A stretch of DNA of 11,399 bases from contig JAFAPF010000344.1 of NCBI GenBank assembly GCA_019247245.1, forward strand, positions 1 to 11,399, in the 5' to 3' direction. Positions 1-11,399 of this stretch are shown in pieces. A model generated the notes under the pieces. It had not been told where the DNA came from. It searched no databases and was given only the letters and a program-made list of their open reading frames with translations. Both the position numbers and the translations under genes were made by a program. This stretch comes from Rubrobacter sp. GTDB taxonomy: Bacteria > Actinomycetota > Rubrobacteria > Rubrobacterales > Rubrobacteraceae. How positions within the stretch are numbered: the stretch's first letter is position 1; every line of letters starts with the position of its first letter.

Positions 1-1425
1 ATCTTCGTGCTGGAATCCGGCCAGCCGGTACTCGATGAGGACCTGAAGTTCATCGAGCAAATCCTGACCATAACGAGCAACATCATCTTTGTCCAAACAA
101 AGATCGACCAGTACAACAAGGAGGATTGGCAGGACATCCAGCGCCGCAACCAGGAGATCCTCAACGAAAGGTTCAAAGATCGGCTGGTCGACACCCGCGT
201 CTGGCCGGTATCGAGCACGAACCTCCGCAAGGCGGCTTCCGCCGACAAGAAGACCGAGGAGGCTTACCTGATGGTTAGCCGACACCAGGAGTTGATGGCC
301 GCGTTGCAGGCGTTTCTGGCCCGGGTGTCCGGGTGGGGGCGGACCACAGAGGCGATAGTCGTGGCTACCAAGTACCACGATACCAGCCGAAAGGCACTGG
401 CCGGACGGCTGGCCGGGCTGACCGCGGAGTCCGAGCAGAAGCAAGCAGAGCTGCAGAAAGCCGCTATGGAAGCCAAGCGGCGCTTCGACGCCGAGTGGGG
501 TATACAAGGTCAGAAATACAAGGAGTTGAGGGACGGGCTGCAGCGTGCTATCTCGGTCGGCAAGCAAAGCTTCTCCAACACGATGCAACCGGGCAGCGAC
601 CTCGAGCTGACCCAGAAAGCGAAGATAGACGCGGCCTCCTCCTTGAAGAAAGCCAACAAGGTCGCCGAGGAGATGCCCGGCGAGATAGTCACGGCGGCCA
701 TGAACAACTGGGCGCGGATCTGCGATGAGGTACAACAGCGGTGCATAGCGTTGCTGGGACCCTTCACCGAAGCCCTCGATGATATAGGTGCGCCGGTCGA
801 GCCAGAGCTGTCCGCTCTCCCCGAGGACGGCGACACCCAAAACAAGTTCAAGCGCGACTACTTCGGAATGTTCAGGAGCTCGGCTGGCTCGGGGATGATG
901 GTGATGAGTATGACCGGGATAGCGCAAATCGTGGGGGGGGTCTCGCTTATAGGAGCCCTTGGAGCGGCGGCGCCATTCGTAGCCGTCCCGGTGCTAGCGG
1001 TGTTGGTAGGTGGCGGCCTCAAGGGGGCCTTGAGCGGGCAGGTCAAGACCTCGCAGCAGCAGTTGAGGGTGCAGCTCGCGGAGCAACTCCAGAAGGTGCG
1101 ACGGTATTTCTTCGATGTGGACCTGGCGGCCGGAAACTTTAGCCGGGTCGACGAATACTTCGCGACCCTGGAGCGCACGGTGAACGAGCAGGTGCGAGAG
1201 CTGGTCGAGAAGAATTCTACGGAGTCCCAAGCAGAGATCGCCCGCCTCAAGGAGGCGATGCAACTCGATGCCCGCGAGCGCGAAGCGCGAACCAAGCAAG
1301 CCCAAGAGCAGCTGGCCAAATGGGATAACATAGGCAAGTCCCTCGGAGCCGTGACGGCTCGCATCAGAATACTGCAAAGACCCGCGGCACCAGCTCCGGC
1401 GCCAGCCACGCTGGAGAGAGGTTAG
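1..1425 (+). CDS. Dynamin-like GTPase, C-terminal part (5' end outside window)
   Basis: The frame is already open at base 1, so the gene begins upstream; about 474 codons are visible. The reading frame enters in the last third of a GTPase domain: a beta strand (IFVLESG), then the G4 motif TKID at bases 97-108, preceded by the hydrophobic strand IIFVQ, then a G5-like VWPVSS segment. P-loop and DTPG motifs must lie upstream. The rest is long charged helices, typical of the dynamin stalk, interrupted by a Gly/Ala/Val-rich hydrophobic stretch at bases 892-1035 long enough for one or two membrane-inserted helices, then more coiled coil and a Pro/Ala-rich tail. This layout fits bacterial dynamin-like proteins that insert into and remodel membranes. 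It is followed after 4 bases by an Hsp70-like gene and further on by a second dynamin-like gene. Which bacterial dynamin subfamily it belongs to cannot be settled without the N-terminus. Confidence 0.85.
   Translation: MFVLESGQPVLDEDLKFIEQILTITSNIIFVQTKIDQYNKEDWQDIQRRNQEILNERFKDRLVDTRVWPVSSTNLRKAASADKKTEEAYLMVSRHQELMAALQAFLARVSGWGRTTEAIVVATKYHDTSRKALAGRLAGLTAESEQKQAELQKAAMEAKRRFDAEWGIQGQKYKELRDGLQRAISVGKQSFSNTMQPGSDLELTQKAKIDAASSLKKANKVAEEMPGEIVTAAMNNWARICDEVQQRCIALLGPFTEALDDIGAPVEPELSALPEDGDTQNKFKRDYFGMFRSSAGSGMMVMSMTGIAQIVGGVSLIGALGAAAPFVAVPVLAVLVGGGLKGALSGQVKTSQQQLRVQLAEQLQKVRRYFFDVDLAAGNFSRVDEYFATLERTVNEQVRELVEKNSTESQAEIARLKEAMQLDAREREARTKQAQEQLAKWDNIGKSLGAVTARIRILQRPAAPAPAPATLERG
1413..1421 (+). 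promoter_or_regulatory. Shine-Dalgarno sequence for the Hsp70-like gene
   Basis: A purine run GGAGAGAGG lies at the end of the upstream dynamin gene, overlapping its last codons. Its 3' end is 8 bases before the codon ATA at 1430. There is no ATG, GTG or TTG in the Hsp70 frame between the upstream in-frame stop (TGA, 1352-1354) and the ATG at 1484, which lies beyond the conserved nucleotide-binding motif. The site therefore points to ATA 1430 as the start. Confidence 0.5.
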
Positions 1426-1429
1426 CACC

Positions 1430-3475
1430 ATAACCGAGCAAGCTCCGGCGATCGGCATAGACTTCGGTACTAGCAACTCTAGCATGGCATGGTACGACCC
1501 CCGAATCGGAGATGCCGAAGTCCTCCTGAACGCCGAGGGACAGACCAAGACCCCTTCGCTAGCGTATTTCGGTGAAAACGAGACCCTGGTCGGCGAGACC
1601 GTCGAGAACCTGATCGAAGACGTCTCAACAGACAGGGCGCGGCGCGATGAGATCCTCGGCCGCACCATCGCGAGCATCAAGCGTAATTTGCTCTCCCCGC
1701 CCAGGATAGCGCTCCCCGGCGGCCGCTACGTCCGTCCAGTGGAGGTTGTAGCAGAGATACTAAAAAAGCTCAAGCACGACGCCGAAGACGGCCATTTCCA
1801 CCAAGAGGTCGGGCGAGTGGTCATCACCTGTCCGGCTGAATTTAACGTGTTGCAGCGCCAAAAGATCGAGGAAGCGAGCCACCTGGCTGGCTTCAGCGAG
1901 GTGGTATTGCTGGAAGAGCCGGCAGCTGGAGCTTTGGCCTACACGCGGGCAGGGCTCAACGTGGGCGAGCACGTGCTGGTCTACGACCTGGGCGGAGGAA
2001 CGTTCGACCTGGCGGTGCTGGACAACGAGGGCGAATCGTTCCAGGTGGCGATGGAGCCGAAGGGTATGGAACGTTGCGGGGGAGACGACTTCGATCTATC
2101 TCTCTACCACCATTGCGACGAGGTTGCCCGCGAGAAGCTGGGGCGCTCCATAAGCCTGACGGGTGCCGTGGATCTGAGCTTCCTGCGGGCGTGTCGGCGG
2201 CGCAAGGAGAATCTCAGCTTTCAGGAGCGGAGCAGGTTCAACAACTACCTGTCCTCGGACGATGGTCCGGTGCTTTTCGAGCACGAGGTGGATCGCCAAA
2301 CGTTCGAAGAGCTGATAGGTGAATATGTCAAGATCACCACGCGGTTGACGAAGGAGATCCTCAGCCAAGCCAATGCCGCGGGCTATGAAATAGATACGGT
2401 GGTGCTGATTGGGGGCTCAGTCCGCGTGCCGCTGGTGATACACACGCTCGAAGAGACCCTGCCGGTAAACCCACTAGGGTTCAACAAAAGAGACGTGGCC
2501 GTTGCCCTCGGCGCGGCACATTACACGAACGTTTGGTGGCCGGCGCCGCAAGAACCGAAAACGGGGCCCGGTACTGAAGCTCAGAGTACGACGACAGATT
2601 CAAGCCCTCCGGCCCAACGCCAAACAGCGGTCGAGGAAGCGGCTTCGGACAGGAAACCGAAGAGGCCAGAAGTAGATCATCGGCTCGATAGCGCTCCAGC
2701 GGGTGACGAGCCGCCTCGTACGCTGCTGCCCGTGGAGAGCACGCCCGACCGCCCATCGCAGCGCAACCAAGACGAACGGTTCCCACCCTCACAAACGACC
2801 GTCCTGCGTGGTGCGCCAGTTCAAGATCAGAGCAGGCAGAAGCAGCGTCGAGTAGTACTTCCTTGGATCAAAAGGCTGGTCGTGGTCGTGGTGATAGTGG
2901 GACTCGCAGGGTTAGGAGGTACTATTTGGTTCGGAGGTGGTAAAGGGGCTAGCCCAGCGCCCGGCTACGACCTGCTGGAGTACCCCTCTGGAAAACTATC
3001 AGTAGAAGTCCCCACCGCCTGGAAGGAGCATGTCACCACTAACGCAACGGGGGAAAATGGAAAGGGGTGGGACTCCTTCGCGGGCGAGAGCGTTATAGGA
3101 ATGACAGCCGGCAACGACCTCCACTCCTGGAGTAGCGGCTCTAAAGGATCCCAGGGGATGTACATAGCGGCCTCAAAGAAGCTAGCGCAAAGCTATACCG
3201 ACGATCAGCTCGTCACCTCGGGCCCTCACGACTACTCCTCTTCCTGCCAGACAGGTCCCCGCCGGGACTTCGATCGAGCCCCCTACTCGGGGAAGATTCA
3301 AGAGTGGGATAACTGCGGCGGCACTGCTGGCCACACCGTCCTCACGCTAGCCGCAGCACCAAAGGGCCGCGGATGCGAGGTCTTATTGCAGATCGGGGGC
3401 TACCTTGAGGGCGAGGAGGAGAACATTCAGCACATCTTGGATACCTTTGAGGCTGACTGCGGGGGTATCAGCTAG
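1430..3475 (+). CDS. Membrane-anchored Hsp70-like ATPase with extracytoplasmic domain; probable AUA start
   Basis: Product of about 681 residues. The N-terminal Hsp70/actin-fold ATPase domain is complete: phosphate-1 motif GIDFGTSNSS (9-18), the catalytic-Lys segment SIKR (Lys about 84), LLEEPAAGA (about 160-168), phosphate-2 motif DLGGGTFD (186-193), adenosine motif VVLIGGS (about 324-330) and the VALGAA connector (about 358-363). After this there is no Hsp70 substrate-binding beta-sandwich or lid. Instead there is a Pro/Ser/Thr/charged linker (about 367-478), one transmembrane helix (482-501, after a basic cluster, which suggests cytoplasmic ATPase and outer C-terminus), and a domain of about 180 residues with four cysteines (606, 629, 649, 677). 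The segment SVEVPTAW recalls PsbP/Mog1-like folds, but this is only a resemblance. ATG 1484 would cut the ATP-binding motif; the frame has no standard start upstream, so ATA 1430 after a good ribosome site is chosen. It sits between two dynamin genes, probably in one operon. Confidence 0.85.
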   Translation: MTEQAPAIGIDFGTSNSSMAWYDPRIGDAEVLLNAEGQTKTPSLAYFGENETLVGETVENLIEDVSTDRARRDEILGRTIASIKRNLLSPPRIALPGGRYVRPVEVVAEILKKLKHDAEDGHFHQEVGRVVITCPAEFNVLQRQKIEEASHLAGFSEVVLLEEPAAGALAYTRAGLNVGEHVLVYDLGGGTFDLAVLDNEGESFQVAMEPKGMERCGGDDFDLSLYHHCDEVAREKLGRSISLTGAVDLSFLRACRRRKENLSFQERSRFNNYLSSDDGPVLFEHEVDRQTFEELIGEYVKITTRLTKEILSQANAAGYEIDTVVLIGGSVRVPLVIHTLEETLPVNPLGFNKRDVAVALGAAHYTNVWWPAPQEPKTGPGTEAQSTTTDSSPPAQRQTAVEEAASDRKPKRPEVDHRLDSAPAGDEPPRTLLPVESTPDRPSQRNQDERFPPSQTTVLRGAPVQDQSRQKQRRVVLPWIKRLVVVVVIVGLAGLGGTIWFGGGKGASPAPGYDLLEYPSGKLSVEVPTAWKEHVTTNATGENGKGWDSFAGESVIGMTAGNDLHSWSSGSKGSQGMYIAASKKLAQSYTDDQLVTSGPHDYSSSCQTGPRRDFDRAPYSGKIQEWDNCGGTAGHTVLTLAAAPKGRGCEVLLQIGGYLEGEEENIQHILDTFEADCGGIS

Positions 3476-3526
3476 CTTCCAACTCAAAAGACCCAAAGCA
3501 GATATCCTACGTGCACGGTAGTACGA

Positions 3527-3532
3527 TAGTAT
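3527..3532 (+). promoter_or_regulatory. Possible -10 element for the second dynamin gene (leaderless start)
   Basis: TAGTAT (fits TAnnnT) ends 8 bases before the GTG start at 3541. No Shine-Dalgarno sequence is seen before this GTG, and no convincing -35 is present. Transcription from here would begin about at the GTG, giving a leaderless message. The same geometry is seen at murI with a perfect TATAAT. The gene may equally be read from the upstream promoter of the operon. Confidence 0.25.
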
Positions 3533-3540
3533 GTTGAGCT

Positions 3541-5232
3541 GTGAGAGATGTACAGGAAAAACTCGCCTCAACCTTAGGCCAAGCGGGACAGCGACTGCGG
3601 GGGGCAGGGCTACCGGTGGAGCTGGGGGAGCGGATGGAAGGCCTAGCAAAGCAGGTGTACCAGCCCTGCGTGGTCGCCGTGGTAGGGCGGGTCAAGGTGG
3701 GCAAGAGCACGTTTGTAAACGCTTTGCTTGGTGAGGATCTGGCCAAGGTCGGGACTACCGAGACGACCGCTACCATCAACTACTTTAGTTATGGAGATTC
3801 AGACCCCGAATGGCCCGTCCGGTGTCACTGGCGTGGCGGCAAGGTTACCACCGAAAACCGGGAGTTCCTGGACAGCTTACAGGGTAACGATATGGAGACC
3901 CTACAGCGGGCGGATGGCATCGAACATCTGGAGTACTTCTTGCCTAACCCTTTGCTGAAGCAGATTACGCTGGTAGATACACCGGGCACCGGGACGGTGG
4001 TTGAGGAGCACAGCGAGCGAACGGCGGAGTTCATGCGCCTTAACAGCCAGTTGCGCGAGCGCCACGATCGGGACACCCGGCGCTTGAGCGATACAGCGGA
4101 CGCCGTGATCTACCTGGTGGGTCAGGTAGCGAAGGTTACGGACCAGGCTTTCCTCCAAGAGTTCGCCCAGACGACCGAAGGACAGGCGAGCATGCTCAAC
4201 GCTATCGGGGTTCTCTCCAAGATCGAGCTGCAACCAGAGGTCATGGCCCGCCGCCACGAGCTGTCCAGGAAGATCGCCGGCCAGCTCAAAGAAAGCCTGA
4301 ACACCGTGCTCCCCGTCGCTGCCGGGGTCCGTCGGGCGCTGGACCGGCTGCTGCAAGACGACAGGGCACCCCTCCAGCAGGTGGTAAGCACGCTGCGACG
4401 CATCCCGTCCGAGACGCTCGAGATACTCCTCGATTCTCAGGAGTTTTTCTGCGACCTTGACTTTCCCGATAGTCCGATCGGCCCGGCCGAGCGCCGCGAG
4501 TTGCTGGGAGACATGAGGTGGGCAGTGTTTACTACCATAGCCCGCATCACGGCGGATACTAGCTTAGATCTCGACGAGGTCGTCAAACGGCTGGAAGAAA
4601 TCTCCGGCTTTAAGCCACTGTGGGAGGTTTTGAACAGGCATTTCATCCAGCGGGGTCACATTTTGCGATGCTACAGGATCGCGGGGGACGCCCAGGAGAC
4701 GCTAAACGAGATCCGCTACACCCATCTACCGAACCACAGGAGGAAGATACGAGGGGAAAAGGACCGCTTGGACAGGTTTCTTCGCTTTATCCGCTGCTCC
4801 GGCGGAGATCCCGAGACCGCCGCAGAGCTCGAGGACTTCGTGCGGGGTCACCTCGACGCAAACCGCCAGGCGAGCGAGCTGGAAGCGCTGTACCGCGACC
4901 TGGACGCCGAGCTTAGCGCGCTGTTCCACCAGCTTCTGGAGTACAACGAGGACTTCGAGGTTTTGCAAAAACTCGACACCGCCGACGGCGACTTCTCCGA
5001 AGCCGAACTAGCCGAGCTACGACCGTTGCTGGGTCTGTACGGCGCTGAGGCCCAAACGCGGCTGCCGCCGGGGGCAGCAAACGCCGAGTACGTGGGCTGG
5101 CGGCAGATGTACTGGGGGCGCCGGAGAGGCGAGGCGTCGTACGGAACGGTTCAACACGCCGTGGCCGATAGGGCATTTACCCGGTATGGTTTGATCCTCG
5201 ATGAGATCCTGGTTGGCTCGGATAATTTTTAG
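3541..5232 (+). CDS. Dynamin-like GTPase, soluble partner type
   Basis: Product of 563 residues with a full GTPase domain: a short N-terminal helix (1-40) typical of dynamin-like proteins, P-loop GRVKVGKST (49-57), switch-1 threonines around TTETTAT (72-78), G3 motif DTPG (146-149), and a degenerate G4, SKIE (226-229), where TKxD or NKxD is usual. The rest is charged helix without any membrane-inserting hydrophobic stretch, unlike the other dynamin two genes upstream. GTG 3541 is the first possible start after an in-frame TGA at 3535; ATG 3634, preceded by GGGGGAG, is an alternative but would remove the N-terminal helix. The gene lies 65 bases after the Hsp70-like gene on the same strand. Unlike dynamin pairs (one membrane-binding, one soluble) are known in bacteria, so heteromeric action with the upstream dynamin is a reasonable inference. 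The exact function is unknown. Confidence 0.85.
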   Translation: MRDVQEKLASTLGQAGQRLRGAGLPVELGERMEGLAKQVYQPCVVAVVGRVKVGKSTFVNALLGEDLAKVGTTETTATINYFSYGDSDPEWPVRCHWRGGKVTTENREFLDSLQGNDMETLQRADGIEHLEYFLPNPLLKQITLVDTPGTGTVVEEHSERTAEFMRLNSQLRERHDRDTRRLSDTADAVIYLVGQVAKVTDQAFLQEFAQTTEGQASMLNAIGVLSKIELQPEVMARRHELSRKIAGQLKESLNTVLPVAAGVRRALDRLLQDDRAPLQQVVSTLRRIPSETLEILLDSQEFFCDLDFPDSPIGPAERRELLGDMRWAVFTTIARITADTSLDLDEVVKRLEEISGFKPLWEVLNRHFIQRGHILRCYRIAGDAQETLNEIRYTHLPNHRRKIRGEKDRLDRFLRFIRCSGGDPETAAELEDFVRGHLDANRQASELEALYRDLDAELSALFHQLLEYNEDFEVLQKLDTADGDFSEAELAELRPLLGLYGAEAQTRLPPGAANAEYVGWRQMYWGRRRGEASYGTVQHAVADRAFTRYGLILDEILVGSDNF

Positions 5233-5485
5233 TGCTCAGCCGCCAGCAAAGTTCGTAGCAAAGACGCCACTAATCCTATCCGATGTCATACCCTCATAGA
5301 CGCTGGGTGCGCGGCTGATATGCCTCCGTAAGAAACACAGCTCAAACCAACAAGAGTGCCTAAGGGAGGGGTAGTGGCGTTTCGTAGAACTTTGTAGAAG
5401 GCCGCAACCGCTTGCGAAAATCGCTATAGTCTCTCTGGGAGTTTGAATAGGTGCGGAGACTTCTCTACCAAGATTAAGGATTCTC

Positions 5486-5512
5486 TAAAAGCCGGGCTCC
5501 GGAACGAAGCCC
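5486..5512 (-). terminator. Rho-independent terminator of the sortase unit
   Basis: Read on the minus strand, the arms GGGCTTCG and CGGAGCCC (5505-5512 and 5494-5501) form an 8-base-pair stem with one G-U pair and a TTC loop. GGC and then four T's follow (5487-5490). On the plus strand the same stem has an internal C-A mismatch and no T-run, so the minus strand fits better. It lies about 107 bases after the sortase stop codon. Confidence 0.6.
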
Positions 5513-5523
5513 CCTTCTATACA

Positions 5524-5556
5524 TAGCTTGGAGAATAGCTTGGAGAATCCTCCGAG
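5524..5556. repeat. 12-base tandem repeat with overlapping hairpin
   Basis: The unit TAGCTTGGAGAA occurs twice in direct succession (5524-5535, 5536-5547). The second copy also forms a 7-base-pair stem with the following bases (5539-5545 with 5550-5556, loop AATC, one G-U pair on the plus strand). It could be part of a plus-strand transcript end or a binding site; there is no T-run, so no role is assigned. Confidence 0.6.
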
Positions 5557-5618
5557 AGCATTTGTCGACGTGTTGTATATAGTACAGAGCAGGCTTTGAT
5601 GGCTCATCGACAAGCTCC

Positions 5619-6215
5619 TTAGCTCACCAGTTCCCCTTGTACGATGAGGCGGTTAGAGAAGTCCGGGAACGTGCAGGTCTGCAGCGATACGATGCTTTTA
5701 CCCGCTACGGGGTTTATAACCTCAACGTCTTGAGGCGTGACAACCTTTGCTCCCGTCACTCGGTAGAGATACTGCTTGCCCGTTGAATCCTTCAGAAGTA
5801 TCTGGTCGCCGCTCTGCAGCTCGTTGAGCTTCAAGAACACCAGGAAAGAGCCGGTTCCGACGAAGCCTAAGCGATGACCGGCGATGTAGGTGTTGGACCC
5901 TGGCTGCCAGGGGAAACCCGTCTCGGGTACGTGCACGGCTGACTCTGAGAGCTTCTCTTCGGAGAGCGAATTGTAGATTGGTATGTTCTGGAGCCCGAGC
6001 TTGGGTATAGTCAGGTAGAGTGTTTTGTCCGCAGGGCCCTGAACATTCGTTGGGAAGGTCGATCCGCTCTCGGTCGGGATGTTCCCTGCCGTATTATTGC
6101 TCATGCCGACAAAAATCAGAGCTATACATCCCAACGCTGCCACGACCATCGCTATTCCTAGCTGTACTAGTAATCGTCTCCACCACGTCTTCTTTTTTTG
6201 GCTAGCCATTGCCAT
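5619..6215 (-). CDS. Sortase (cysteine transpeptidase, class D/E-like)
   Basis: Product of 198 residues. A basic N-terminus (QKKKTWWRR) leads into one membrane helix (about 17-37), then an extracytoplasmic sortase barrel begins at LYLTIPKLG (about 66-74). The catalytic triad is visible: His114 in YIAGHRLG, Cys181 in LQTC, Arg189 in SNRLIV. Sortases cut LPxTG-like signals between Thr and Gly and join the protein to the cell wall. The length and single N-terminal membrane helix suit small class D/E housekeeping-type sortases of Gram-positives; the class cannot be fixed by eye. ATG 6215 is the first start; ATG 6209 is two codons further in. No strong ribosome site is seen. The gene follows, on the same strand and 175 bases later, a gene for an LPNTG protein, so the two form a likely enzyme-substrate pair. 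Confidence 0.92.
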   Translation of the reverse strand: MAMASQKKKTWWRRLLVQLGIAMVVAALGCIALIFVGMSNNTAGNIPTESGSTFPTNVQGPADKTLYLTIPKLGLQNIPIYNSLSEEKLSESAVHVPETGFPWQPGSNTYIAGHRLGFVGTGSFLVFLKLNELQSGDQILLKDSTGKQYLYRVTGAKVVTPQDVEVINPVAGKSIVSLQTCTFPDFSNRLIVQGELVS

Positions 6216-6323
6216 AAGTCTATTTTCCGTTCTCTGTATAGCCCCGTATTGAGAAGACTCGTGTTCGACCTATAGGAACAATAGGTGACTTGTTGAGAGG
6301 CCCTTCTTAGAAAGCTGCTCGCA

Positions 6324-6390: not shown

Positions 6391-8055
6391 TTACCGGGAG
6401 AAGCGCCGTATAAGGAACCATCCCGCAAGGAACAGCCCGCCTGCCGCCAGCGCCAGTGGGGCCCATCCCCCGCCGCCAGTATTCGGGAGGCTCTTGGTCC
6501 TGAGGGAGTCTAGGAGGTTCTTGGCCCCGGAAGCAGGAAGATTGCTCTTGAGGGAGTTTCCAGCGTTGGCTATCCCGTTCGTAACGTTGGGTGGGAGGAT
6601 GTTGCTTATGGACACACCCTCGTGTCCCATGCCACTGACGGGGCCTGCGCCGCTGCTATGGAAGCCGCCACTAGAGCCACTACCGTAGCTACTGCTGTCG
6701 TAGCCACCACTTGAGCCACCACCGTAGCTGCTGCTGTCGTAGCCACCACTTGAGCCGCCACCGTAGTAACTACTGCCAGAGTCATCACTGGTGCCAGAGC
6801 TATCTGCGGGGCCAAAGATACCACCGGGGCCGAAGATCCCACCAGCGCCAAAGATAGGGACACCAGAGAAGATTCCACCGGGCCCAAAGATAGGGACACC
6901 GGAGAAGGGACCCCCGGGGCCGAAGATCCCACCGGCGCCAAAGATAGGGACACCCCACAAGAGACCATCAGGGCCGAAGATCCCACCAGGGCCGAAGATA
7001 GGACCACCCCGGAAGGGACCCCCAGGGCCGAAGATCCCACCGGGTCCAAAGACAACGCCTCCGGTATTATTCTCTCCGGCGTTAGTGGTATCTCCGGTCT
7101 TAGTAGCGTCTCCAGCCTTAGCTGTGTCTCCGGTCTTAGCGGTGTCCCCAGCCTTAGCGGTATCCCCAGCCTTAGCGGTATCTCCAGCCTTAGTGACGTC
7201 TGCGGTCTTAGTGATATCTCCACTCTTAGTGACGTCTGCGGTCTTAGCGGTATCTCCACTCTTAGCGGTATCTCCAGCCTTAGTGACGTCTGCGGTCTTA
7301 GTGATATCTCCGCTCTTAGTGACGTCTACAGTCTTAGTGATATCTCCAGCCTTAGTGGCATCTCCGGTCTTAGCGATGTCTCCTATCTTGGTGGTATCTC
7401 CGGTCTTAGCAGTGTCTTCGATCCTAGTAGGATCTTGCTTAGTGGAATCTCCAGTCTTTCCCAGGACCACGTCGTCCGGCGCCTTTTCTTTTACCACCAC
7501 GCCTGTGTCCTGCGCGTACTGATTGCTCCCGGTGTTGCCAAAGGCGCCATCCTGCGGAGCAGCAATGGCCGGGGCGGCAATAGCGCCTTGCATCATCACC
7601 ATTACCGCAGCGACTCCTAGGTAATGGCGTGGATCCTTGAAATTTATGTGGCCGAGGACTTCGTCTTCTGCTTCCTGAGAGAGTAGCGCGCTTTGGAGTA
7701 TCTCATCGAACGTCTGGGCCTCCGGGAAGTTGGCCGTCCACAAAGCGGCATCCGGGTCATCGAGTAGCTGCTGCTTCCACTGGGGATCGCTCGCGGCTCG
7801 ATCCAGCATCTTCTCCGCTAGGCCCTGCTGCAGCTGCAGATATTCCTCACGAGCAGAGGACATGGTCGCTACCTGCGTCTGAACGGTGGGTCCGGCGCTT
7901 TCGAGCATCTCCAGGAGCTGACGGCCCTCTGGGATACCGCCTATAGCCGTTTTCGGGTCCTCGATAAACTGCCGCCTCCACCGAAGGTCTGCCTCAGCTC
8001 GTTGCAGGACCTGCTCGTCTAGCCTACGCTGTAGCTGCTGGCTGTCTATCATCAT
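6391..8055 (-). CDS. LPNTG cell-wall-anchored repeat protein with two N-terminal NHLP-leader-like domains
   Basis: Product of 554 residues from ATG 8055, chosen because GGGGAGGAAGG lies 9 bases upstream; the frame also has a TTG at 8085. Order (residue numbers from ATG 8055): two similar helical modules (about 10-50 and 78-120) sharing the pattern L-x-R-A-x-x-D-x-x-W-K/R, then D/E-D-P-x-x-A, which resembles NHLP-type leader peptides of RiPP precursors; a hydrophobic segment (about 145-167) ending in AIAAPAIAAP, like a signal peptide with signal-peptidase sites but placed far from the N-terminus; 19 hexapeptides of type T-A-K-T-G-D; a Gly/Pro/Phe region built on FGPGGIF; three 13-residue Ser/Gly/Tyr units; then the sorting signal LPNTG (523-527), a membrane helix and a basic tail (RRFSR). 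It is probably a surface stalk anchored by the downstream sortase. The role of the N-terminal modules is unknown. Confidence 0.88.
   Translation of the reverse strand: MMIDSQQLQRRLDEQVLQRAEADLRWRRQFIEDPKTAIGGIPEGRQLLEMLESAGPTVQTQVATMSSAREEYLQLQQGLAEKMLDRAASDPQWKQQLLDDPDAALWTANFPEAQTFDEILQSALLSQEAEDEVLGHINFKDPRHYLGVAAVMVMMQGAIAAPAIAAPQDGAFGNTGSNQYAQDTGVVVKEKAPDDVVLGKTGDSTKQDPTRIEDTAKTGDTTKIGDIAKTGDATKAGDITKTVDVTKSGDITKTADVTKAGDTAKSGDTAKTADVTKSGDITKTADVTKAGDTAKAGDTAKAGDTAKTGDTAKAGDATKTGDTTNAGENNTGGVVFGPGGIFGPGGPFRGGPIFGPGGIFGPDGLLWGVPIFGAGGIFGPGGPFSGVPIFGPGGIFSGVPIFGAGGIFGPGGIFGPADSSGTSDDSGSSYYGGGSSGGYDSSSYGGGSSGGYDSSSYGSGSSGGFHSSGAGPVSGMGHEGVSISNILPPNVTNGIANAGNSLKSNLPASGAKNLLDSLRTKSLPNTGGGGWAPLALAAGGLFLAGWFLIRRFSR
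6655..6771 (-). repeat. 39-base tandem repeat, 3 copies, within the LPNTG gene
   Basis: Three head-to-tail units encode 13-residue blocks of the form SSYGGGSSGGYDS. The last is diverged (Gly to Ser, Tyr-Asp to Phe-His). Such Gly/Ser/Tyr segments are usually flexible linkers. The near identity of the first two units in DNA suggests recent duplication. Confidence 0.85.
6805..7056 (-). repeat. Gly/Pro/Phe-rich degenerate repeat region of the LPNTG gene
   Basis: The encoded segment is built from recurring FGPGGIF and GVPIFG blocks in variable order, about 84 residues, with hardly any charged residues. The DNA repeats GGGCCGAAGATCCCACC-like words on the plus strand. The composition recalls elastic or self-associating structural proteins; this is resemblance only. 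Confidence 0.8.
7072..7413 (-). repeat. 18-base tandem repeat, 19 copies, encoding hexapeptides
   Basis: Nineteen consecutive 18-base units encode hexapeptides of the pattern x-T/A-K-x-G/A-D (for example TAKTGD, TAKAGD, VTKSGD). Lys and Asp alternate every three residues with no hydrophobic position of the kind seen in left-handed beta-helix hexapeptides. The pattern KSGD-ITKTAD-VTKAGD occurs twice, which shows duplication of longer blocks. Copy number is probably variable between strains through slippage. Confidence 0.88.
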
Positions 8056-8117
8056 ATTCTTGAACCTTCCTCCCCTGTGTCTCAAGCTACTCAGGGGTGT
8101 CTACTCGTATTTAGAGT

Positions 8118-9039: not shown

Positions 9040-9840
9040 CTATAGGGCAGCAACCTGTATTTTTTCTTCGAGGAAACGGCTTCCTAGAGCAGCAAATTCT
9101 TCGGGGTCGGCGCTGCACAGGTAAGCCGAATGGCCCTTGTCCTCTGGGTGTTTGGGGCGCCTGAGGTAGCCGCGGCGGGAGAGTATACGTCCTACCTCAA
9201 GGGCGATCTGTCCGGCAGAGGAGATCAAACGAACCTCGGGGCCGAGGATACGGTTGATGGGCGCGGAGATCAAAGGGTAATGCGTGCACCCAAGGATGAC
9301 CGCGTCTACTAATTGCTCTTTGAGGGGAGTGAGATACTCCTGGGCGGTCTTTTCGAGCTCGGGGCCGTCTACGATGCCGCGCTCTATAAGCGGAACGAAA
9401 CGGGGTGCGGCCTGCTCGTGCACCTCTATGCCCGCGTCGAGGTTATGCACGACCCGCCGGTACGCTCCGCTCTGGACCGTGCTCTTGGTCGCCAGCACCC
9501 CGATGTGTCGGTTGCGTGTTTCCAGGACGGCAGCCCGCGCTCCCGGGACTATGACCCCGACTATGGGCACCTCGAACTCGGCCTGGGCTGCCTCCAGGGC
9601 CGCCGCAGTCGCTGTGTTGCACGCTACGACGACGATCTTGACGTTCAAGCTGATGAGGTATCGGATGATCTCGAACGCGAACCCCCGTACCTCGTCGAGG
9701 TCTCGGACGCCGTAAGGTACCCTCGCCGTGTCCCCGAAGTAGATGGTGTGCTCGTAGGGAAGACGGTCCCGGATCTCCGAGAGCACCGTCAGCCCGCCGA
9801 CCCCCGAGTCGAAGACGCCTATGGGACGTGGATCGCTCAC
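9040..9840 (-). CDS. murI: Glutamate racemase
   Basis: Product of 266 residues, normal for the family. It interconverts L- and D-glutamate in the cytoplasm and so supplies D-Glu for the peptidoglycan stem peptide. The two-thiol racemase signature is intact: PIGVFDSGVGGL (7-17, Asp11), YFGDTARVPYG (34-44), the first catalytic Cys74 in VVACNTATA, and the second Cys185 in LGCTHYPL. The start is GTG 9840, which gives the usual short N-terminus before the FDSG motif; a perfect TATAAT ends 8 bases before it and no Shine-Dalgarno is seen, which suggests a leaderless message. On the minus strand it lies after ssrA and before tRNA-Pro. Confidence 0.96.
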   Translation of the reverse strand: MSDPRPIGVFDSGVGGLTVLSEIRDRLPYEHTIYFGDTARVPYGVRDLDEVRGFAFEIIRYLISLNVKIVVVACNTATAAALEAAQAEFEVPIVGVIVPGARAAVLETRNRHIGVLATKSTVQSGAYRRVVHNLDAGIEVHEQAAPRFVPLIERGIVDGPELEKTAQEYLTPLKEQLVDAVILGCTHYPLISAPINRILGPEVRLISSAGQIALEVGRILSRRGYLRRPKHPEDKGHSAYLCSADPEEFAALGSRFLEEKIQVAAL

Positions 9841-9848
9841 GGAGTCGC

Positions 9849-9854
9849 ATTATA
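9849..9854 (-). promoter_or_regulatory. -10 element of murI
   Basis: A perfect TATAAT on the minus strand, 8 bases before GTG 9840. Transcription would start about at the first base of the start codon. The -35 position shows no good match. The 95 bases between tmRNA and this element carry no clear terminator; a short (TAG)n run follows the tmRNA end. Confidence 0.5.
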
Positions 9855-9943
9855 TACGTATCTACGCCGAGCACATACCCATAAGAACTCATACCAAGGC
9901 TTAACAAGGCCCACCGTTCTTAGCGGACCGGTAGTAGTAGTAG

Positions 9944-10294
9944 TGGAGGCGGCGGGATTCGAACCCGCGTCCGCGAACGCGCCGTCCGTGAGATTTTACG
10001 AGCGTCGCACCCGGTTTAGCTTCACCTTATCCTACGAACCGGGGCTCCGTAGGAAGGCTAGCCCGTTGAATGTCCCCTAAGAGCCCCGGGCCAGGACCCA
10101 AAGGGTGATCCCACTAGATGACACCGGTACCCGGGTCGTGGGCCTCCCGGACCGATGAGCCGCTTTTATTTAAGCAGCTACAGCCAGATTATCGTTGGCG
10201 TGTATGTTTTAGTTGCCGGCGTTTAGCGAGTCTCCAGCAAACTCGGCTCGTCTCACGGGACGCTGACCGCTCACGTCGAAGCCGGTACGCCCCC
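9944..10294 (-). ncRNA. ssrA: Transfer-messenger RNA (tmRNA)
   Basis: A 351-base RNA with a tRNA-like ends domain: 5' GGGGGCGTACCGGCTTCGAC, whose first seven bases pair with CGCCTCC at the 3' end (one G-U), discriminator A, and a T-arm GCGGGTTCGAATCCCGC. CCA is not encoded. The internal tag frame begins at GCC (10197-10199) and ends with TAA (10170-10172), encoding ANDNLAVAA, a protease tag of the usual A-N-D...A-A form. tmRNA with SmpB frees stalled ribosomes and tags the unfinished protein for degradation. The gene lies directly after smpB on the same strand with its own promoter. Long self-complementary stretches between the tag and the 3' end suit the pseudoknots. The exact 5' end could be one G earlier (10295). 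Confidence 0.95.
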
Positions 10295-10302
10295 CTCAAA
10301 GT

Positions 10303-10308
10303 ATTATA
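10303..10308 (-). promoter_or_regulatory. Promoter (-10) of ssrA
   Basis: The minus strand reads TGATATAAT, an extended -10 with perfect TATAAT, ending 8 bases before the tmRNA 5' G. The -35 position (CCTTAG at 17-base spacing) is poor. It gives tmRNA expression independent of smpB. Confidence 0.7.
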
Positions 10309-10337
10309 TCACGTCTAGGTAGCATCTAAGGGTTACT

Positions 10338-10799
10338 CTAGCGCTGTCGGAGACGCTCTTTCATAGCGCGTTCGATCTCGCGCTCGGCGGTTTTGCGGGC
10401 GATCTCACGTCTTTTGTCATACTGCCTTTTGCGCCTAGCGACGGCGATCTCGAGCTTTATGTTGCCGTTTTTAGCGTAGAGTCTCAAGGGGATGAGCGTC
10501 TTGCCCTCCTCTTGGCTCTTGCCGACGAGCCGGGCTATCTCCTCTTTGTGCAACAGGAGCTTTCGGTCACGGGTGGGGAGCTGCTCGAGGTGGGTAGCGT
10601 TGGCGTATGGGGAGATATGGGCGCCGATGAGGAAGACCTCTCCGTCCCTCACGCGCGCGTAGCTTTCCTTGAGGTTCGCCCGTCCCTCTCGGACAGACTT
10701 TACCTCGGGGCCCTTCAGTACTATCCCAGCCTCGTAAGTCTCTTCGATGTCGAAGTCGTGCAAAGCCTTTTTGTTCCGGGCGAAGGTCTTGCCGTTCAA
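10338..10799 (-). CDS. smpB: SsrA-binding protein SmpB
   Basis: Product of 153 residues, normal length. SmpB binds the tRNA-like part of tmRNA, fills the role of the missing anticodon arm in the ribosomal A site and is needed for trans-translation. Visible family blocks: ARNKKALHDFDIEETYEAGI near the N-terminus, LKGPEVKSVREGRANLKESY, the middle block ISPYANATH, and a basic C-terminal tail (KRQYDKRREIARKTAEREI and onward) that enters the mRNA channel. The start is TTG 10799, which shares bases with the TGA stop of rnr (TTGA), so translation is probably coupled. ssrA follows on the same strand, which matches its role. Confidence 0.95.
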   Translation of the reverse strand: MNGKTFARNKKALHDFDIEETYEAGIVLKGPEVKSVREGRANLKESYARVRDGEVFLIGAHISPYANATHLEQLPTRDRKLLLHKEEIARLVGKSQEEGKTLIPLRLYAKNGNIKLEIAVARRKRQYDKRREIARKTAEREIERAMKERLRQR

Positions 10800-11399
10800 A
10801 GACGCTTTACCACCCTGAGCTCGGCCCGCTGCAGGAGCGGTGAGACGTTCAGGAGCTCGACGACCACCCTATCGCCGACTCTGTAGGAAGCGCCGATGGC
10901 GTCGTTCGAGAGGACGACGCCGTTGGGTTCCAGATTCCACCAGCCGGGGAGCTTGCTGACGTGCACGAGGCCCGTAGCACCCGTCTCGAGCTCGACGAAG
11001 AGCCCGAACGCAGCGGTGCTAACGACTACGCCTTCCAAAGTGTCTTCCACGCGGTCTTGCATGAGCCACATCAATGTGTACTCATCGCCCGTGCGCTCGC
11101 AGATCATACTCTGCCACTCGCGCTGCGAGATGTGCCCGGCGACCGCTACCAGATCGTCTGGGGGCTCGTCGCCGAGAAGCGCGCGGTGAACGAGGACGTC
11201 AGAGTAACGCCGGATCGGGGAGGTGAAGTGGGTATAGTCAGCGAGCGCCAACCCATAGTGGCCTAGAGGCGAAGATGAGTAAAAGGCCCATGGGATGGAG
11301 CGTAGGATGAGGTAGTTGATCGCATCGGACTTCGCCTTTTGAGAGATTAGACCGAGGTTCTCAGGGGTAGGCTCGATATGCATCCCCACCGCCGCGAGT
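10796..11399 (-). CDS. rnr: Ribonuclease R, C-terminal part (5' end outside window)
   Basis: About 200 C-terminal residues are present; the frame is open to the window edge, so the gene starts beyond it. The C-terminal part of the RNB catalytic domain shows HFTSPIRRYSDVLVHRAL, the family hallmark, and is followed by an S1 RNA-binding domain (EGVVVSTAAFGLFVEL, then GLVHVSKL) and a short end. RNase R is a 3'-5' exoribonuclease that degrades structured RNA and, in E. coli, non-stop mRNA in partnership with SmpB and tmRNA, both encoded just downstream here. There is no long Lys-rich tail after S1, unlike E. coli RNase R. An RNase II-like name is possible, but the smpB neighbour favours rnr. Confidence 0.92.
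   Translation of the reverse strand, partial: LAAVGMHIEPTPENLGLISQKAKSDAINYLILRSIPWAFYSSSPLGHYGLALADYTHFTSPIRRYSDVLVHRALLGDEPPDDLVAVAGHISQREWQSMICERTGDEYTLMWLMQDRVEDTLEGVVVSTAAFGLFVELETGATGLVHVSKLPGWWNLEPNGVVLSNDAIGASYRVGDRVVVELLNVSPLLQRAELRVVKRL

Follow-up and report, generated by a model that had tools for sequence, protein, structure and literature searches.

A dynamin pair encoded together with an Hsp70-type ATPase whose C-terminal domain is exchanged between bacterial relatives

Introduction

Among the nearest described relatives of the gene set reported here are the IniA/IniC dynamins and the DO-GTPase/GAP1 conflict systems, the latter as presented in the accessible part of Kaur et al. 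2020 (PMC7159879). The set was found in Rubrobacter sp. (assembly GCA_019247245.1) on contig JAFAPF010000344.1, one whole contig of 11,399 nucleotides (G000:C437 in our numbering) that we call the window. It consists of two unlike dynamin genes, dyn1 and dyn2, with a gene for an Hsp70-type ATPase between them. As judged from sequence comparisons, this arrangement recurs in other phyla, and the C-terminus of the ATPase is freely exchanged between relatives.

In the accessible part of their description, the DO-GTPase/GAP1 systems resemble this set in several ways: they combine GTPase genes, often two, with HSP70s, a subset having a second HSP70 without a peptide-binding domain; they carry exchangeable effector or sensor domains (FGS, caspase, beta-propellers); and they show a preference for complex bacteria (PMC7159879). 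A further link is a DO-GTPase2 gene upstream of the set in one of our loci (L051). However, the GTPases here are dynamins, neither window dynamin matched a DO-GTPase family in Pfam, and the word 'dynamin' occurs 0 times in PMC7159879. The HSP70 theme of those systems, as far as the accessible part of the paper presents it, involves GrpE and GAP1 rather than a dynamin pair and a C39-like peptidase (PMC7159879). No GAP1 or FNIII was found among the window proteins in the Pfam scan, the contig being cut upstream; nor was DnaJ or GrpE, for which no dedicated search was made.

Bacterial dynamins have mostly been described in pairs for which no regulator is known. If the conserved ATPase beside them carries a swappable sensor, it would supply such a regulator, and what triggers the dynamins could be tested directly by exchanging sensors. 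The Cj-DLP1/Cj-DLP2 pair is likewise made of unlike dynamins encoded in one operon, and its structure (5owv) is the top PDB match of dyn2 by sequence profile (7.1e-14); unlike the window set, it has no Hsp70, which in the accessible part of PMC6104087 is mentioned in a reference title only. LeoA and LeoBC are matched weakly by dyn2 in PADLOC (1.9e-10 and 5.4e-9, respectively). For IniA/IniC (IniBAC of mycobacteria), neither IniB nor the isoniazid response nor a described Hsp70 partner belongs to what was seen here, no iniB model having been searched. We found no description of a bacterial dynamin-Hsp70 system in the open-access literature (preprints and most subscription papers being outside this scope), and the set is not described in the accessible parts of PMC8195603, PMC6104087, PMC10104851, and PMC8844932.

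Conservation of the locus across phyla

Searching named genomes with an alignment of dyn1 returned 58 loci. In these, all frames were scanned with profiles that we had built for the two dynamins, the Hsp70 ATPase, and the C39-like protein. The loci were split by dyn1 score into strong ones (at least 140 bits; n = 19, of which 15 were evaluable, with at least 1 kb past dyn1) and weak ones (below 140 bits; n = 39, 35 evaluable). An Hsp70-ATPase gene was present in 15/15 evaluable strong loci compared with 5/35 weak ones (Fisher p = 6.9e-9, with the proviso that loci of the same lineage are not independent). When dyn1 scored at least 350 bits, the ATPase gene lay immediately downstream in all nine evaluable loci, and dyn2 came next on the same strand in six of them (L036, L039, L041, L042, L043, L044). 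As for the other three, L038 has dyn2 pieces on the opposite strand, L040 has a partial dyn2 upstream and on the opposite strand, and the profile search found no dyn2 in the 21.9 kb of L037. Because the neighborhood is conserved, the association of the three genes, as read from the sequences, exceeds chance. A sequence-only reading of the window made before this analysis had named the lack of such a neighborhood in related genomes as grounds for refuting it, and the three-gene unit is in fact kept there.

By record title, the 15 loci include members of Planctomycetota, Pseudomonadota, Chloroflexota, Armatimonadota, Verrucomicrobiota, and Bacillota, which makes seven phyla with the window. Two or three ATPase genes or domains are present in L036, L037, L041, L044, and L054. 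In the dyn1 tree, Planctomycetota need at least two changes by well-supported branches, while the other groups allow one origin; long branches meet in this tree, and transfer is not proven by it. A split of gene order along the two dyn1 clades was considered, but the two do not match neatly: all four loci with the order dyn1-dyn2-ATPase (L045, L046, L050, L091) fall in one clade, which they share with L054 (dyn1-ATPases-dyn2) and L048 (dyn1-ATPase).

A similar association was seen for 11 actinobacterial IniA/IniC-like pairs, taken from a sample of 296 genomes and chosen by dyn2 score, not by Hsp70. Within the stretch retrieved around each pair, an Hsp70-ATPase protein other than an apparent DnaK is encoded for 10 of these 11 pairs, the remaining locus (L099) having only a DnaK-like gene. 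Nine of the 10 proteins have a membrane helix behind the ATPase; that of L094 has WD40-like repeats instead. In L097, L100, L101, and L102, which adjoin IniA/IniC-like pairs, the ATPase is degenerate and matched weakly (32-54 bits), and is followed by a membrane helix and a Thr/Pro-rich tail. They might be identical with mycobacterial DUF7159 proteins.

Thirteen of the 19 strong loci have a C39-like peptidase gene just upstream of dyn1, as do four of the 39 weaker ones (L054, L067, L070, L073). All 18 aligned members matched Peptidase_C39_2 (E limit 0.01), some below the Pfam cut-off, and Gln, Cys, His, and Asp are invariant in the 18 (Q28, C34, H131, and D152 in L002 numbering). The gene was found in 4/296 genomes sampled from the phylum. 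It is not visible in the window, where the contig is cut, but on another contig of the same genome (C236) a C39-like gene that includes a DPBB domain immediately precedes an N-terminal fragment of dyn1. This fourth gene, the swapping of domains, and the cut-off start of dyn1 had all been missed in the sequence-only reading.

Architecture of the three proteins

The three genes lie on the same strand with gaps of 4 and 65 bases, as had been noticed from the letters alone and as the open reading frames bear out. The first, dyn1 (1..1425, + strand), encodes the C-terminal 474 residues of a BDLP/IniA-type dynamin in a frame that is open at the contig start. Its product begins at model position 184 of 653, and the P-loop and switch regions are outside the window. 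We call it a dynamin because its full-length relatives (about 650 amino acids) carry Dynamin_N, so this assignment is taken from the sequences of those relatives, in which the GTPase motifs G-x-A-K-R-G-K-S, DTPG, and TKID are present. A profile of 30 dyn1 relatives matched best to BDLP (2j68, 1.6e-26) and IniA (6j72, 8.1e-22). A candidate membrane-inserting paddle, a hydrophobic stretch seen by hydropathy only, spans residues 299-334 (895..1002, + strand).

The second dynamin, dyn2 (3541..5232, + strand; 563 amino acids), shows no such paddle-like stretch in its hydropathy. Its GTPase domain (residues 45-197; 3673..4131, + strand) was recognized by Pfam as Dynamin_N (4.4e-16) and contains the G1 motif GRVKVGKS and the G3 motif DTPG. 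After re-ranking by VIA-align, the predicted model aligned best with IniA, SynDLP, mitofusins, and BDLP, and it has a helical neck/trunk as in bacterial dynamins. Both proteins are IniA-like dynamins, dyn1 by its family profile and dyn2 by its fold. By sequence they form an unlike pair, one with the candidate paddle and one without, and on this point the profile matches and hydropathy agree with what the sequence-only reading had suggested.

The protein encoded between them (1430..3475, + strand) has 681 amino acids if ATA 1430 is its start. It matched Pfam HSP70 with an E-value of 1.7e-58, over profile positions 1-377 of 599 only. The nucleotide-binding domain, delimited by Pfam HSP70 and by alignment to DnaK structures (residues 7-371; 1448..2542, + strand), shares with DnaK the Hsp70 motifs GIDFGT, SIKR, DLGGGTFD, and GGS.R.P, but the substrate-binding domain of DnaK does not follow it. 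The DnaK of this genome is encoded elsewhere and covers HSP70 positions 2-598 of 599. Behind the ATPase half come a linker, a single transmembrane helix called by hydropathy (residues 483-501; 2876..2932, + strand), and a C-terminal domain (2945..3472, + strand) with two Cys invariant in 11 sequences. One membrane helix had also been read from the letters, with the proposal that the C-terminal domain senses the outside, and this domain, judged from the sequence, probably does lie outside the membrane. Its fold is predicted to be Mog1/PsbP-like, the model resembling the envelope proteins Apa, MTC28, and LpqN in VIA-align, and domains of this type also occur on exported proteins of the family that resemble lipoproteins or HtrA.

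This C-terminal domain is not a fixed part of the protein. The ATPase domain of the window is 94% identical to that of P0242, whose tail is also the same (88%); P0243, whose ATPase domain is 82% identical to that of the window, has WD40 in its place. The exchanged domains were called in 56 Hsp70-like proteins, chosen mostly from types other than WD40, all of which match HSP70. Their tails include FGE-sulfatase (7), RDD (5), Beta_helix (3), Sel1, PASTA, beta-propellers, and TPR (2 each), as well as AIG1, caspase, and AIM24 (1 each), and many of the swapped-in domains have no obvious membrane anchor. WD40-type domains were found behind the ATPase in many of the 120 relatives listed. Three copies in tandem, with beta-helix or FGE-type tails, are present in Azospirillum. 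A TerB-like helical linker module was considered for relatives, on a match of only 0.036 in one protein.

In L037 (14334-19002), two Hsp70-ATPase copies that start nearly alike and differ in their tails are separated by genes for transposases and an integrase, a setting that is likely a route of tail exchange. A diversity-generating retroelement was considered for the FGE-type tails; in L037, the locus in which it was looked for, the frames between the copies include no reverse transcriptase.

Proposed function and its alternatives

The explanation that we favor, and hold to be probable, is that the Hsp70-type ATPase is the switch of a multi-gene system, linking an exchangeable sensor at its C-terminus to the unlike dynamin pair. 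The gene set, the domain make-up, and the tail exchange can be read in the sequences, whereas control of the dynamins by the Hsp70 is what we infer from them. The exchanged domain would detect envelope damage or an invader signal and alter the nucleotide state of the ATPase. This change could allow assembly of the two dynamins at the inner membrane, which they may then seal, tether, or disrupt; the C39-like peptidase might be a processing enzyme or an effector. The set looks like an undescribed membrane alarm or defense system, and we regard invader defense and a general response to envelope damage as about equally probable purposes. More tentatively, the set could represent a new form of innate immunity in bacteria, with an Hsp70 ATPase in the STAND/NLR role and with interchangeable sensors (WD40, FGE/lectin-like, beta-helix, PASTA, and extracytoplasmic domains) that fire a two-dynamin membrane machine and a C39-like protease. 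With a sensor-bearing switch of this kind, Hsp70 ATPase domains would join the nucleoside triphosphatase switches of bacterial surveillance.

The hints of defense come from the surroundings and from turnover. In an Anaerolineae locus (L043, 2-9505), the run of DISARM genes (drmMI, drmA, drmB, and drmC) stops roughly 0.5 kb ahead of dyn1, in the same orientation, and the dyn1-ATPase-dyn2 set follows; together with the DO-GTPase2 gene of L051, this makes a defense setting a hint from one or two loci only. A kinase-like neighbor protein in L044 matched several kinase-bearing PADLOC models. We also counted as defense hints the patchy presence of the set and the pieces of further copies in the Rubrobacter genome. 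In Bacillus subtilis, a single dynamin, DynA, has been reported to delay phage lysis, according to the accessible part of PMC8844932.

Several observations weigh against this interpretation. A known defense system adjoins the set in one locus only, and L037, L042, L046, and L091 gave no PADLOC match, one neighbor protein being tested per locus. No relative was found in a search of viral contigs, and a plasmid search with a dyn1 relative returned 43 records, none covering 80% of the query and all below 60% identity; the Hsp70 search in plasmids returned generic Hsp70s only. Phage- or plasmid-borne cargo was thus rejected as the main carrier. No C39-like gene was found in 6/19 strong loci, one of which (L042) begins inside dyn1. 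Gene order varies, being dyn1-dyn2-ATPase in L045, L046, L050, and L091, and the matches in L043 are weak (ATPase 57 bits, dyn2 130 bits). The correlated pairwise distances of the three proteins in 20 systems (r = 0.966-0.985; 0/5000 permutations as high) speak for the set, but the mixture of near and far systems inflates r, simple co-inheritance would also give it, and in 9/20 systems the grouping of the proteins into one system was inferred. Finally, the window itself has a non-standard start codon and an incomplete dyn1.

The set might instead serve housekeeping maintenance of the envelope. DynA and IniA have been proposed to repair or stabilize the membrane, and the dynamins here would do likewise, with the Hsp70-like protein acting as an envelope-stress receptor and playing no part in defense. 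This would fit the closeness of dyn1 to BDLP and IniA, the Hsp70-ATPases near 10/11 IniA/IniC-like pairs (nine with a membrane helix behind the ATPase), and a C-terminal domain folded like Apa, MTC28, and LpqN and shared with lipoprotein-like and HtrA-like exported proteins. A dispensable, fast-changing system would, however, better explain the patchy presence, the pieces of further copies, the sensor copies in tandem (L041, L054), the cytoplasmic-looking sensors (WD40, Sel1, TPR, FGE), and the caspase fusion, so that we consider the housekeeping reading rather less probable, at about one in four.

Still less likely is an uncoating chaperone that disassembles dynamin coats as Hsc70 does with clathrin, which the sequence-only reading had raised on account of Hsc70. 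In its favor, the gene between those of the two coat-forming GTPases encodes an Hsp70 ATPase fold whose motifs are conserved. Yet the substrate-binding half required for Hsc70-type uncoating is missing, and the swappable domains that hold its position share no fold. That reading is supported as to the conserved unit, the unlike dynamins, and the probable outer domain, and is not supported as to uncoating; a canonical chaperone was rejected on the same ground. It seems very improbable that the ATPase forms polymers, as MreB and other relatives of actin do, and serves as a scaffold that positions the dynamins. MreB_Mbl, of the same superfamily, is also matched by 53/56 Hsp70-like members, but for the window protein the HSP70 match is far stronger (1.7e-58 versus 4e-11), and we know of no Hsp70 ATPase domain that forms filaments.

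Gene start, further copies, and neighboring genes

The Hsp70-like frame has no ATG, GTG, or TTG before 1484, and ATG 1484 lies behind the conserved phosphate-1 loop GIDFGTSNS. Because no standard start precedes this loop and a good Shine-Dalgarno-like stretch, GGAGAGAGG (1413..1421, + strand), was read 8 bases before ATA 1430 and is presumed functional, this ATA is likely the start. A sequencing error is less likely because the relative P0242 (89% identical) is also predicted only from an inner ATG. Sigma-70-like sites were absent from 1200-6300 (0 found, 1.3 expected from shuffles), which neither shows nor excludes a single transcript.

Long dyn2 matches were found in 2/39 genomes of the family, namely that of the window and G270, in which the contig ends there. 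G076 and G130 have short dyn2 tails resembling remnants, and the other 10 matching genomes of the family have the GTPase start or other short stretches only. The genome of the window contains pieces of up to three further copies (C427, C482, C236). On C427, a dyn1 remnant containing TGA is followed by the genome's second Hsp70-ATPase gene, of WD40 type, and a small SHOCT-like membrane protein (L133, 1182-4740). The latter bears an outer domain of the window Hsp70 type (83% identical), which is thus a separate protein on C427 and fused to Hsp70 in the window. On C482 (L143, 2630-4864, - strand), one frame joins part of dyn1 to a short match to the end of the ATPase (22.9 bits) and to PASTA domains, as would be left over from a deletion. 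On C236 (L134, 2052-4018), the C39-like gene with its DPBB domain (lytic transglycosylase-like) precedes the dyn1 N-terminal fragment of about 144 residues, after which the frame is lost. C236 and C482 could be one copy, or assembly faults.

Downstream of dyn2 in the window, a sortase gene (5619-6215, - strand) adjoins a gene for a low-complexity protein (6391-8085, - strand) with an LPNTG-like sorting end and weak NHLP-leader-like matches near its N-terminus. The remaining neighbors (9040-11398, - strand) are ordinary: an Asp/Glu racemase (MurI-like), SmpB, and the end of an RNase R-like gene.

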